A DNA stretch of 32,170 bases from Nitrososphaerota archaeon (GTDB lineage: Archaea > Thermoproteota > Nitrososphaeria > Conexivisphaerales > Conexivisphaeraceae). Under the pieces are notes generated by a model. The model worked only from the letters and a program-made list of their open reading frames with translations, made no database searches and was not told the origin of the DNA. The translations under genes were made by a program, and so were the position numbers. This document shows, one piece after another, positions 18,345 through 21,622 of this stretch. Numbering within the stretch: the stretch's first letter is position 1; the number at the start of each line of letters is the position of its first letter. The stretch covers positions 1 through 32,170 of the forward strand of contig WALT01000013.1 in assembly GCA_015522695.1 (NCBI GenBank), in the 5' to 3' direction.

Positions 18345-18365
18345 AAGCCCATCGGCGAGCTTGGA

Positions 18366-18647
18366 ATGAGGAAAATATCGGATCCATGGCGTTTGATCAT
18401 GATGATGAAGGTCGACGTCCCATGGAGGCTGACACCTTCCATCGGATCCATGGTGAAATCCCGCACGGTTCCGCCTGAACTCGGGGTTCCACCAGCGGAC
18501 AAGGAGATCGAGCGGTCCATCTTCCACCTGAAGGGAACCCAGCCACGGTGGATGGGGAGGCGTCCTGTGGGTTGGGATCTCAAGATCGGTGGATTGAAGC
18601 TGGATATCGAGGAGGTCATCGATGTTGTCGCGGCCCTATATTCCTGA
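18366..18647 (+). CDS. Hypothetical protein in the ksgA position
   Basis: I do not recognise this 93-residue protein. It is soluble, with a hydrophobic-basic start (RKISDPWRLIMMMKVDVPWRL), a proline-rich middle (SRTVPPELGVPPADKEIERSIFHLKGTQPRWMGRRPVGWDL) and a helical end (KLDIEEVIDVVAALYS). It lies 21 nt after DUF655 and overlaps the mtq2 start by 26 nt, which supports real translation and coupling. Many archaea have ksgA (16S rRNA dimethyladenosine transferase) at this place. The protein has no SAM-binding motif and is far too short to be KsgA. Confidence 0.55.
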   Translation: MRKISDPWRLIMMMKVDVPWRLTPSIGSMVKSRTVPPELGVPPADKEIERSIFHLKGTQPRWMGRRPVGWDLKIGGLKLDIEEVIDVVAALYS

Positions 18648-19230
18648 TGAAGACTCCCTGTTACTCCTCGAGTGTGTGGGGAAAGATATTATATCATTAC
18701 CGGACAATAAAAAAGAAATCAGCGTTCTAGAAGTGGCATGTGGTATAGGATTTATATCATCGAATCTAATTTCAATGGGGTCGATAGCACGTCACAGGAT
18801 AGCGAGGCTCGTCTGCAGCGACATAAGCATGGAAGCGGTGAAGGAGGCGAGCGAGAGGTTGGCGGGATCGAGCGTCACAGAGGTCCTCGTTGGCGATCTC
18901 GCAGAACACTTCCGGGATGGGGCGTTCGACATCGTACTCTTCAATCCACCATACCTTCCGATCGGAGAGGATGATCTCTCGATAGCGGAAGATAGAACGA
19001 TCTTCGGGCGTGAAAGGGGATCCGAGGTTACGCTCAGCATGTTGAGGTCATCGCTGCCGACGCTGAAACCCTATGGACACGTGTTGTTCATGACCAGCTC
19101 GTTGACGGTGGACGCTGTGCTGGACGAGATCTCCACGATATCTGGGCTAAAACTGTATGGAGCGGTATGTGAAAAGAGGCTCTTCTTCGAAACTTTGTAC
19201 GTGATCAAGGCCGTTAAACTCAACCTCTGA
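18622..19230 (+). CDS. Release-factor glutamine methyltransferase (HemK2/Mtq2-type)
   Basis: A class I SAM methyltransferase of 202 residues. Motif I is VLEVACGIGF (35-44), the acidic strand is LVCSDIS, and the catalytic NPPY is at 108-111 (LFNPPYLP), which methylates the amide of glutamine. The archaeal/eukaryotic family works with a Trm112 partner and modifies the GGQ loop of the release factor. The aRF1 of this window has an intact GGQ (Gln184), so it is the expected substrate. The start RPYIPDEDSLLLLE is the usual Y-x-P-x-E-D-S/T N-terminus. It ends convergently with the DRG-like gene (11-nt overlap). Confidence 0.88.
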   Translation: MLSRPYIPDEDSLLLLECVGKDIISLPDNKKEISVLEVACGIGFISSNLISMGSIARHRIARLVCSDISMEAVKEASERLAGSSVTEVLVGDLAEHFRDGAFDIVLFNPPYLPIGEDDLSIAEDRTIFGRERGSEVTLSMLRSSLPTLKPYGHVLFMTSSLTVDAVLDEISTISGLKLYGAVCEKRLFFETLYVIKAVKLNL

Positions 19231-20287
19231 TCTCCACGATATCCCCATCCTCGACCACGAAATCTAGACCTACACGGAGTACATGACCTCCACGCCAGAT
19301 CCTCGCAAATCTAAAGGTTTCCAACAACTCCCTGTGCACGTTCTCCGCCACATCCCTGACGGTAGAACCGTGAACCAATAACAATGGAGGCCTCTGCACA
19401 TCCTTGCCAGGCGGTTTCGTGTAAATTCTGGTCAACCCCAGGATCCGCAAGACCACATGGCCGAGATCGTCTAGGCGATCTGATCGTATAGATGGTAGCT
19501 CCGTGCTTAAACGGTCCCCCTTCGATGACACGACTATACATCTCTTAACCTTCTTGCCGAGTAGAGTGGCCTCTAAATCCTCCAGCTTCGACTCACCTCT
19601 GAGCCTGACCATGGCATTTCGAACCCCGAGGCTCCTGAGATAATCCCTGACTTCCTCATGTGAGACGTTACTGGAGGTCCCGGTGACTATTATCCCGCCA
19701 TTGGAGGTAACCTTGACATCGACACCTATGTCCTTGCTGGACAAGATCACTCCAAGCTCCCCCAGTCGTTCGATTGTGGATTCCAGCTCCGCCCTGGATG
19801 AGGCGGCGAGCAACAGGATGTCGGAGTTGATGATGACGCCAGATACACGGTTCAAAAGCCATCTTCCGATCACGTCGTCTATCGGTGCCCATATGATTTG
19901 GAGATGGATATCGGCTGAATCGAATATGCCGACGATCGGGGTTTCATAGAGCCTATAAACTTCGGGTTTGAGTCCGGTGAGCTTTGAGAAGAGCGCCATC
20001 GATCTCTCCAGCGGTCCTACTACGCTCAACTGTGGGAACTCGGGTTTCTTGACGGTCCATCCTATACCGCCGCTTCCCCTTTTCTTCGCTTTCCTCTCCT
20101 GTTCCTCTAAAAGGGATTCCAGGTTCGATATCTGTCTTCTCAAGCTCACGACCAAATTAGCTGTACCCTTATGCTTAGGCAATTTGGAATACATCTGTCT
20201 GAGGAGCTCCAACTTCATCCTGGGATTCTTCGTGACTATGGCACGAGACCATAAGGCCTTGACCTCCTCGGGCAGGTTCGTGACCAT
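19220..20287 (-). CDS. DRG/Obg-family protein with degenerate GTPase domain and intact TGS domain
   Basis: A 355-residue protein with the domain plan of archaeal DRG GTPases. It has an N-terminal helical segment (NLPEEVKALWSRAIVTKNPRMKLELLRQMYSKLPKHKGT…LESLLEEQERKAKK), a G-domain region, and a C-terminal TGS domain (286-355, IYTKPPGKDVQRPPLLLVHGSTVRDVAENVHREL…VGLDFVVEDGDIVEIRG). The GTPase motifs are lost. The P-loop, normally G-P-P-N-V-G-K-S, reads G-P-L-E-R-S-M-A (91-98). The D-x-P-G-type G3 is WAPID (133-137) and the N-K-x-D is SSKGD (254-258). It should not bind GTP in the usual way. The conserved flanks and TGS suggest a retained ribosome- or partner-binding role, which is inference. It is divergent from trmJ. 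Confidence 0.88.
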   Translation of the reverse strand: MVTNLPEEVKALWSRAIVTKNPRMKLELLRQMYSKLPKHKGTANLVVSLRRQISNLESLLEEQERKAKKRGSGGIGWTVKKPEFPQLSVVGPLERSMALFSKLTGLKPEVYRLYETPIVGIFDSADIHLQIIWAPIDDVIGRWLLNRVSGVIINSDILLLAASSRAELESTIERLGELGVILSSKDIGVDVKVTSNGGIIVTGTSSNVSHEEVRDYLRSLGVRNAMVRLRGESKLEDLEATLLGKKVKRCIVVSSKGDRLSTELPSIRSDRLDDLGHVVLRILGLTRIYTKPPGKDVQRPPLLLVHGSTVRDVAENVHRELLETFRFARIWRGGHVLRVGLDFVVEDGDIVEIRG

Positions 20288-20354: not shown

Positions 20355-21086
20355 ATGACGAGCCATGATGAGACTTATAGAAGATGGACGGTCGCCTTTG
20401 TTGAACCACGGTTCAGCATGAACGTTGGCTATGTCGCACGCGTCATGGCGAACTTCGGCCTCAGAGATCTCGTGATAGTCACGGGCAGTAAACGTCTTAA
20501 ACCGATGGCTAAAACTGCCATCAAATATTCCTCCCATGGTCACTTGATACTCGAGTCCAGTCGCGTGCTCAAGACGCTTGAGGAACTTCGAAGGGAGAAG
20601 GGTGTGCTGGCAGCTACAACGGCTCAGGTAGCTAGGAGACCTTCCAAGATCGAAAGGAAGGCCTTATCGCCTGAGGAATTCGCGGAGATAACCCTCAGCA
20701 GAAGTGACGTTGCATTGGTGCTCGGTCGGGATACAACTGGACTGACGAACGAGGAACTTGCAATGTGTGACGTCGTAGTCCATGTACAGACCTGGAGCGA
20801 CTATCCCACCCTGAACATCTCGCATGCATTGGCGATAATACTATATGTAGTCGCCAACAGAGCACGCTCAAGTGGAAGACGTCTACGACATTGGGAACCC
20901 CCGAGGCCGGAGGAGATAAAGGCGCTTGAGGGGTGGGTTCTGAAAGCTACAAGTAAACTCGGATATGATGGCCAGAGGACGCGCAAGGTCCTCCTGTCCA
21001 TCAGAAGGCTGGTCACGACCTCGATGGCCTCGCGCCAGGAGGTGAGGGTTCTCTTGGGCCTTATAAGACAACTTGTCGTACGCTAG
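20355..21086 (+). CDS. tRNA 2'-O-methyltransferase TrmJ-type (SPOUT family)
   Basis: A SPOUT methyltransferase of 243 residues, probably acting on nucleotide 32 of tRNAs. Motif 1 is VEPRFSMNVGYVARVMANFG, motif 2 ALVLGRDTTGLTNEELAMCD, and motif 3 YPTLNISHALAIILY, which form the SAM-binding trefoil knot. The Asn-rich N-terminal stretch with Arg (FSMNVGYVAR) is the catalytic signature. The C-terminal ~85 residues are a helical extension seen in TrmJ homologues. A TATA-like CTCTTTAAAA lies about 33 nt before the start. It is followed 17-38 nt later by the uL16 gene. Confidence 0.87.
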   Translation: MTSHDETYRRWTVAFVEPRFSMNVGYVARVMANFGLRDLVIVTGSKRLKPMAKTAIKYSSHGHLILESSRVLKTLEELRREKGVLAATTAQVARRPSKIERKALSPEEFAEITLSRSDVALVLGRDTTGLTNEELAMCDVVVHVQTWSDYPTLNISHALAIILYVVANRARSSGRRLRHWEPPRPEEIKALEGWVLKATSKLGYDGQRTRKVLLSIRRLVTTSMASRQEVRVLLGLIRQLVVR

Positions 21087-21096: not shown

Positions 21097-21124
21097 ACCT
21101 TTCATGGCTCTAGCCTTCGGGCCG

Positions 21125-21622
21125 ATGAAGGGAGGCAACTATAGACAGACCAAGGGCATGCCATACGCGAGGAGGGAGTACATACACGGCGCGCCACAAC
21201 CGAAAATAGCCAAATACAACATGGGAAATCCGAAGGGCGAATTTGAATACAAATTCAAGCTCGTGGCATCAGAGCGAGGTCAGGTCAGACACAACGCCCT
21301 GGAGGCTGTGCGGCTGGCGGCGAACAAGACGATACAGGAGGTCGGGGAGAAGAACTACTATCTCGTGATCAAGGTATATCCACACGTCGTACTCAGGGAG
21401 AACAAGATGTTGGCCACGGCGGGTGCGGATAGGCTCCAAGAAGGCATGAGGAGGGCGTTCGGCAAGCCCGTAGGGCTGGCGGCCAGGGTATCGCCGGGTA
21501 CCGTGATAATCGAGCTGAGCACAAGGGCTTCGGATGTCGACCTCGCTAAGAGGGCCTTGAGGATAGCGTCCAGTAAACTACCGATAAGGACTAAAGTCGA
21601 GATGTCCTCCCTCAAGAAGTGA
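21125..21622 (+). CDS. rpl10e: Ribosomal protein uL16 (L10e)
   Basis: A large-subunit protein of 165 residues. The start KGGNYRQTKGMPYARREYIHGAPQPKIAKYNMGNP corresponds to the family's YRxxKxxPYtRkEYI…GxP. It continues with ALEAVRLAANKTIQEVG, YPHVVLRENKMLATAGADRLQEGMRRAFGKPVG and the RVSPGT loop. The ATG at 21125 gives the normal N-terminal length and sits properly behind the TATA box; the ATG at 21104 would add seven residues. Its stop overlaps the GTG start of dph2. Confidence 0.92.
   Translation: MKGGNYRQTKGMPYARREYIHGAPQPKIAKYNMGNPKGEFEYKFKLVASERGQVRHNALEAVRLAANKTIQEVGEKNYYLVIKVYPHVVLRENKMLATAGADRLQEGMRRAFGKPVGLAARVSPGTVIIELSTRASDVDLAKRALRIASSKLPIRTKVEMSSLKK

Follow-up and report, generated by a model that had tools for sequence, protein, structure and literature searches.

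DRG proteins rank with the best-conserved translation-linked GTPases in archaea and eukaryotes; the locus described here encodes one whose GTPase motifs are gone. The window, a stretch of 32,170 nucleotides from a Nitrososphaerota archaeon (contig WALT01000013.1), carries on the minus strand an open reading frame (19220–20287) that starts with ATG and encodes 355 amino acids without interruption, and the plus strand across the same interval is stop-rich. A first-pass annotation, made from the letters alone, had described the product as a DRG-family protein in which the P-loop, G3 and NKxD are replaced and the N-terminal helices and TGS domain are kept, encoded by a gene that is not dead and acting perhaps as a nucleotide-free scaffold on the ribosome. 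The relevant features are listed below; the three neighbouring genes were named by eye from sequence.

19220–20287, minus strand: DRG/Rbg homologue lacking GTPase motifs, 355 aa, intact frame (open reading frame; sequence and fold matches to Rbg1)
20216–20287, minus strand: N-terminal extension of group II DRGs, aa 1–24, MVTNLPxExKAxW (alignment; no counterpart in canonical DRG or Rbg1)
20069–20215, minus strand: helical (HTH) domain, aa 25–73 (assigned by homology to Rbg1, PMC3510508)
19724–20032, minus strand: degenerate G domain, G1–G3 part, aa 86–188 (alignment, model)
19994–20017, minus strand: former P-loop (G1), GPLERSMA, canonically GLPSVGKS(T) (alignment)
19877–19891, minus strand: former G3, WAPID, canonically DLPGI (alignment)
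19553–19723, minus strand: S5D2L domain, aa 189–245, with a conserved GGI motif (Pfam, alignment, model)
19439–19552, minus strand: shortened G4–G5 part, aa 246–283, the most variable part of the protein
19514–19528, minus strand: former G4, SSKGD, canonically NKID (alignment)
19223–19438, minus strand: TGS domain, aa 284–355 (Pfam TGS 1e-14; human DRG1 TGS 2eki, rmsd 1.7)
18622–19230, plus strand: gene for a HemK-type methyltransferase, conserved next to the DRG gene on its downstream side
20355–21086, plus strand: gene for a TrmJ-type tRNA methyltransferase, conserved next to the DRG gene on its upstream side
21104–21622, plus strand: ribosomal protein L10e (uL16) gene, in the same ancient cluster

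Sequence, fold and synteny identify the protein as a DRG/Rbg orthologue. Among solved structures, its best sequence matches are yeast Rbg1 (1.4e-14) and then Rbg2, aligned over residues 26–353, and the domains that mark DRG/Rbg descent, namely HTH, a G domain split by S5D2L, and TGS, occur in that order. Pfam confirmed the TGS domain and matched MMR_HSR1_Xtn, the DRG-specific S5D2L insert, at 6.5e-6, which is under the curated cut-off; the MMR_HSR1 GTPase family gave no match with the window DRG, although it does match P-loop-intact relatives. The HTH domain has a positive net charge and an invariant P(K/H)HKxT turn, and the N-terminal extension ranks among the best-conserved stretches of its family.

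Alignment with canonical DRGs bore out the reported motif replacements: GPLERSMA (aa 91) stands opposite GLPSVGKS in place of G1 GxxxxGK[ST], WAPID (aa 133) opposite DLPGI in place of G3 DxxG, and SSKGD (aa 254) opposite NKID in place of G4 NKxD. SSKGD keeps the Lys and Asp of NKxD in the window species alone, and members of the sister genus g2 of the same family read GHGGS and GPGGA; the two residues are probably a remnant. An AlphaFold model built with 56 relatives (mean pLDDT 91.5, pTM 0.74) had as its best Foldseek matches in the PDB the crystal and ribosome-bound chains of Rbg1 (E 9.8e-23 and 6.4e-22), so that the structure prediction called for by the first-pass annotation agrees with its family assignment. 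The global TM score against Rbg1 was only 0.51. The individual domains thus seem to resemble Rbg1 better than their arrangement does, and either the arrangement differs or the model is unsure there, as its pTM would allow. In the model, strand 1 spans aa 86–90 and helix 1 starts from aa 93, two residues after, which leaves no room for a P-loop and suggests that the P-loop is lost structurally too. We infer that the protein does not bind nucleotide.

The same protein type was found widely in the window's class. The window DRG was matched in 40 of 41 related genomes, and proteins of this type occur in families f1, f4, f5, f6, f8, f9, f13, f15, f16 and f17 and in one f11 genus; wherever the G1 region could be read in these families, the P-loop is absent (the f15 copy came as two pieces that exclude G1). 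Relatives down to 29–38% identity show the same motif loss, and with them the outcome in which the changes are private to this assembly is excluded. The f4 form is reduced to about 320–340 residues, and its model (pLDDT 88.9) still has Rbg1 as first match (E 1.1e-16). Named carriers include Nitrosothermus koennekii (L158), Scotarchaeum otlingeri (L222) and Thaumarchaeota bin EvPrim.Bin14 (L155, on a G002 contig). The proposed search for a second, canonical DRG found none in the window genome, in which the motif-less copy is the sole DRG.

Purifying selection acts on these genes. Whole-gene dN/dS between close relatives lies between 0.04 and 0.29, in agreement with the claim that the gene is alive, and dN/dS of G1–G3 is below 0.25 in every estimable pair, so the G-domain core is still selected and presumably folded. 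Among the motif-less forms, dN of G1–G3 mostly exceeds that of HTH and TGS, whereas in canonical DRGs G1–G3 is the slowest part. Mean pairwise identity follows the same pattern: in motif-less forms it is 0.56 for HTH, 0.41 for TGS, 0.24 for G1–G3 and 0.18 for G4–G5, in line with the conservation of the N-terminal helices and TGS noted at first reading, and in canonical DRGs G1–G3 (0.76) exceeds TGS (0.65). The G domain has been freed from its old constraint, yet is constrained still. A decaying gene kept by chance might explain the faster evolution of the G domain and the lack of the gene at its usual site in sister families (see below). This explanation is barely tenable, because it is contradicted by the selection test, the frames are intact in the relatives listed, and many families keep nearly invariant positions in the N-terminal extension, HTH and TGS. 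Chance or an assembly error is likewise excluded by the matches in related genomes, by the loss shared at low identity and by dN/dS well below 1.

A constrained G domain could also mean that a nucleotide or small ligand still binds in a remodelled pocket and that the protein is a ligand-switched ribosome factor. The selection on G1–G3 and the confident Rossmann-like core of the model would fit such a switch, and some pseudo-GTPase domains, such as those of p190RhoGAP, bind GTP but do not hydrolyse it (PMC10211241). However, the pocket residues vary among the motif-less forms, whose G1 regions read GPLER-SMA, GTLNS-SI, FD----FSD and GYDYQQIVN; the G4–G5 part is shorter by 15–30 residues and is largely gone in f4; and the predicted helix 1 begins at the expected position of the P-loop. 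We regard the ligand switch as quite improbable.

Comparison with DRGs from other archaea indicated how the motifs may have been lost. We designate canonical DRGs as group I and those with an extra N-terminal MVTNLPAEAKAKW segment as group II; beyond the window's class, every DRG found in the Thermoproteota genomes tested was of group II. Across 188 sequences, the G3 glycine was almost confined to group I, and group II proteins had [DE]xP[APS] or further altered residues. Its absence from nearly all group II proteins shows that the switch II (G3) glycine was lost first, before the other motifs. GK[ST] and NKxD are retained in most group II DRGs from Desulfurococcales, Thermoproteales and Bathyarchaeia, the Caldivirga protein has lost NKxD, and all motifs are lost in Sulfolobaceae (e.g., Metallosphaera; L168, L130) and in one Pyrobaculum-like lineage (L073), whose name was guessed from family-code neighbours. 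Several Bathyarchaeia-type group II DRGs (L105, L110, L111, L113, L115, L125 and L225) carry Arg instead of the P-loop Lys; this GRS P-loop is possibly an intermediate stage of GTPase loss.

A careful tree of 71 rows, from which the G-domain columns were left out, nested the window DRG in the group II DRGs with high support and placed Sulfolobaceae among intact Thermoproteia, far from the window's class. A single loss shared by the window's class and Sulfolobaceae was rejected on this tree (p 0.0007) and was not rejected on a quick tree of 135 rows (p 0.072); one and two losses inside the window's class did not separate (p 0.79 on the quick tree and 0.14 on the careful one). The data are best read as complete P-loop loss on at least three occasions, in the window's class, in Sulfolobaceae and in the Pyrobaculum-like lineage. 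Only one P-loop-intact group II DRG was found in the class (L026; genome G005, family f3). Its contig is 7.4 kb long, and the tree puts it with Thermoproteia, although a place inside the window's class was not rejected (p 0.235); it probably reflects contamination or transfer.

The genomic position of the gene bears on its origin. The cluster order around the DRG gene, SRP54-Pus10-L21e-RpoF-DUF655-(KsgA)-HemK-DRG-TrmJ-L10e-Dph2-Csl4 (neighbours named by eye from sequence), is common to several families of the class and to Asgard Baldrarchaeota (L231, L234), in which the DRG at the HemK–TrmJ site has an intact P-loop. This shared order makes the HemK–TrmJ interval, very likely, the site that DRG held ancestrally. 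From SRP54 to L10e, the translation-gene cluster of Baldrarchaeota corresponds almost gene for gene to that of Nitrososphaeria-type archaea.

Two differences were observed within the cluster. Several relatives have KsgA/Dim1 (PF00398) between DUF655 and HemK; the window lacks it there (positions 18345–18621), and searches of the window genome for a convincing KsgA/Dim1 returned methyltransferase-like background matches only. G006, G033 and G066, the last a one-contig genome, likewise lack KsgA/Dim1; G001, G002, G004 and G020 have it. In f2 and f11 genomes (L254, L255, L256 and L259), an opposite-strand gene of about 350–400 aa stands between TrmJ and L10e; the window has no such gene.

In some relatives, the motif-less DRG is replaced by a canonical one. 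Family f2 is of the window's order, and in three of its genera HemK adjoins TrmJ with gaps of about 5, 105 and 37 bp; the site is empty, and a different contig carries a canonical group I DRG. Family f11 includes genus g45 with the motif-less form and two other genera with group I. By hand count, about 186 of the 250 genomes of the class have group I and 40 have group II, those with neither being mostly incomplete assemblies; none of the 250 has both. If the two groups do the same job, they should exclude and replace each other in just this way. The swap fits a shared function, and it could also consist of two independent events.

These observations bear on whether the protein has left the ribosome for a new role, such as RNA binding or serving as a scaffold for the methyltransferase of an adjacent gene. 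The HTH domain has a mean net charge of +7.8, versus +1.3 in canonical DRG, the gene adjoins HemK and TrmJ, and the yeast protein, for its part, requires GTPase activity (PMC3510508), all of which would suit a departure from the ribosome. However, P-loop-intact group II DRGs have the same charge and the Asgard ones the same neighbours, so neither feature is tied to the loss of the motifs, and a canonical DRG is present where the motif-less form is absent. We consider a new role off the ribosome unlikely.

We favour, as reasonably probable, the explanation that the protein is this archaeon's ancestral single-copy Thermoproteota DRG, turned into a pseudo-GTPase that likely docks at the ribosomal factor site without a GTP switch. 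When bound to the yeast ribosome, Rbg2 has its TGS at 18S h5/15, its G and HTH domains at the stalk base, the sarcin-ricin loop and H89, and its S5D2L at the A-site tRNA (PMC8040806); in Rbg1, the HTH, S5D2L and TGS domains, distal to the GTP pocket, add to a positive surface (PMC3510508). Because the conserved HTH, S5D2L and TGS domains of the motif-less protein correspond to these ribosome-facing parts, we propose the same docking place. The pseudo-GTPase would bind the factor/A-site region through these three domains as DRG does, with the TGS contacting the small subunit, the HTH and the remodelled G-domain core lying at the stalk base and around the sarcin-ricin loop, and the S5D2L pointing to the A-site tRNA. 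It may steady the A-site tRNA or aid slow or stalled ribosomes, and with no nucleotide timer the state of the ribosome alone would set binding and release. Ribosome binding and a function in translation are what we infer here, and the scaffold suggested by the first-pass annotation is supported to the reach of sequence, structure prediction and genomics. A DFRP partner recruits Rbg1 to polysomes in yeast; we know of no confirmed DFRP partner in archaea, which counts against this explanation. GTPase activity is reported to be absolutely required for yeast Rbg1 function (PMC3510508), and the mechanism of a DRG that dispenses with GTP must then differ to some extent at least.

Taken together, these results suggest that GTP is not always needed for what DRG does on the ribosome. 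A broader view, which we hold to be evenly balanced between right and wrong, is that the core ribosomal function of DRG is GTP-free, that the GTPase was discarded at least three times in Archaea beginning with the G3 glycine, and that GTP-driven and GTP-free versions were swapped between sister families. Lineages that live on a motif-less DRG, including cultivable Sulfolobaceae, part ribosome binding from the GTP switch and open the role of the DRG GTPase, called indispensable in yeast, to direct testing. It would be a mistake to annotate such genes as GTPases by homology. Our search, confined to the open-access literature, found no description of a DRG lacking GTPase motifs. A review and the yeast structure paper (PMC3510508) regard the DRG of archaea as a normal GTPase encoded by a single-copy gene.

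Among known systems, the closest are the OBG-family ribosome-binding GTPases DRG1/DRG2 (yeast Rbg1/Rbg2), which share the four-domain order and give the best sequence and fold match. Unlike Rbg1/Rbg2, the window DRG lacks the P-loop, the switch I threonine, G3 and G4, has a shorter G domain and no known DFRP partner, and carries an extra 24-residue N-terminal extension. Group I archaeal DRGs (ammonia-oxidiser families f7, f10 and others) are homologous over about 330 residues and appear to take over the function in sister families, but they keep GLPSVGKST, DLPG and NKID, occupy another locus and have no N-terminal extension. The P-loop-intact group II DRGs of Desulfurococcales, Thermoproteales, Bathyarchaeia and Baldrarchaeota belong to the same family and share the extension, those of Baldrarchaeota also sharing the neighbours; unlike the window DRG, they have G-x4-GK[ST] or GRS and mostly NKxD, with the G3 glycine already missing. 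The pseudo-GTPases CENP-M, the p190RhoGAP domains and the Rnd proteins are eukaryotic and belong to families unrelated to DRG, and to our knowledge none of them acts on the ribosome. What they would have in common with the window DRG is a GTPase fold that has lost catalysis and persists as a binding platform (PMC10211241).
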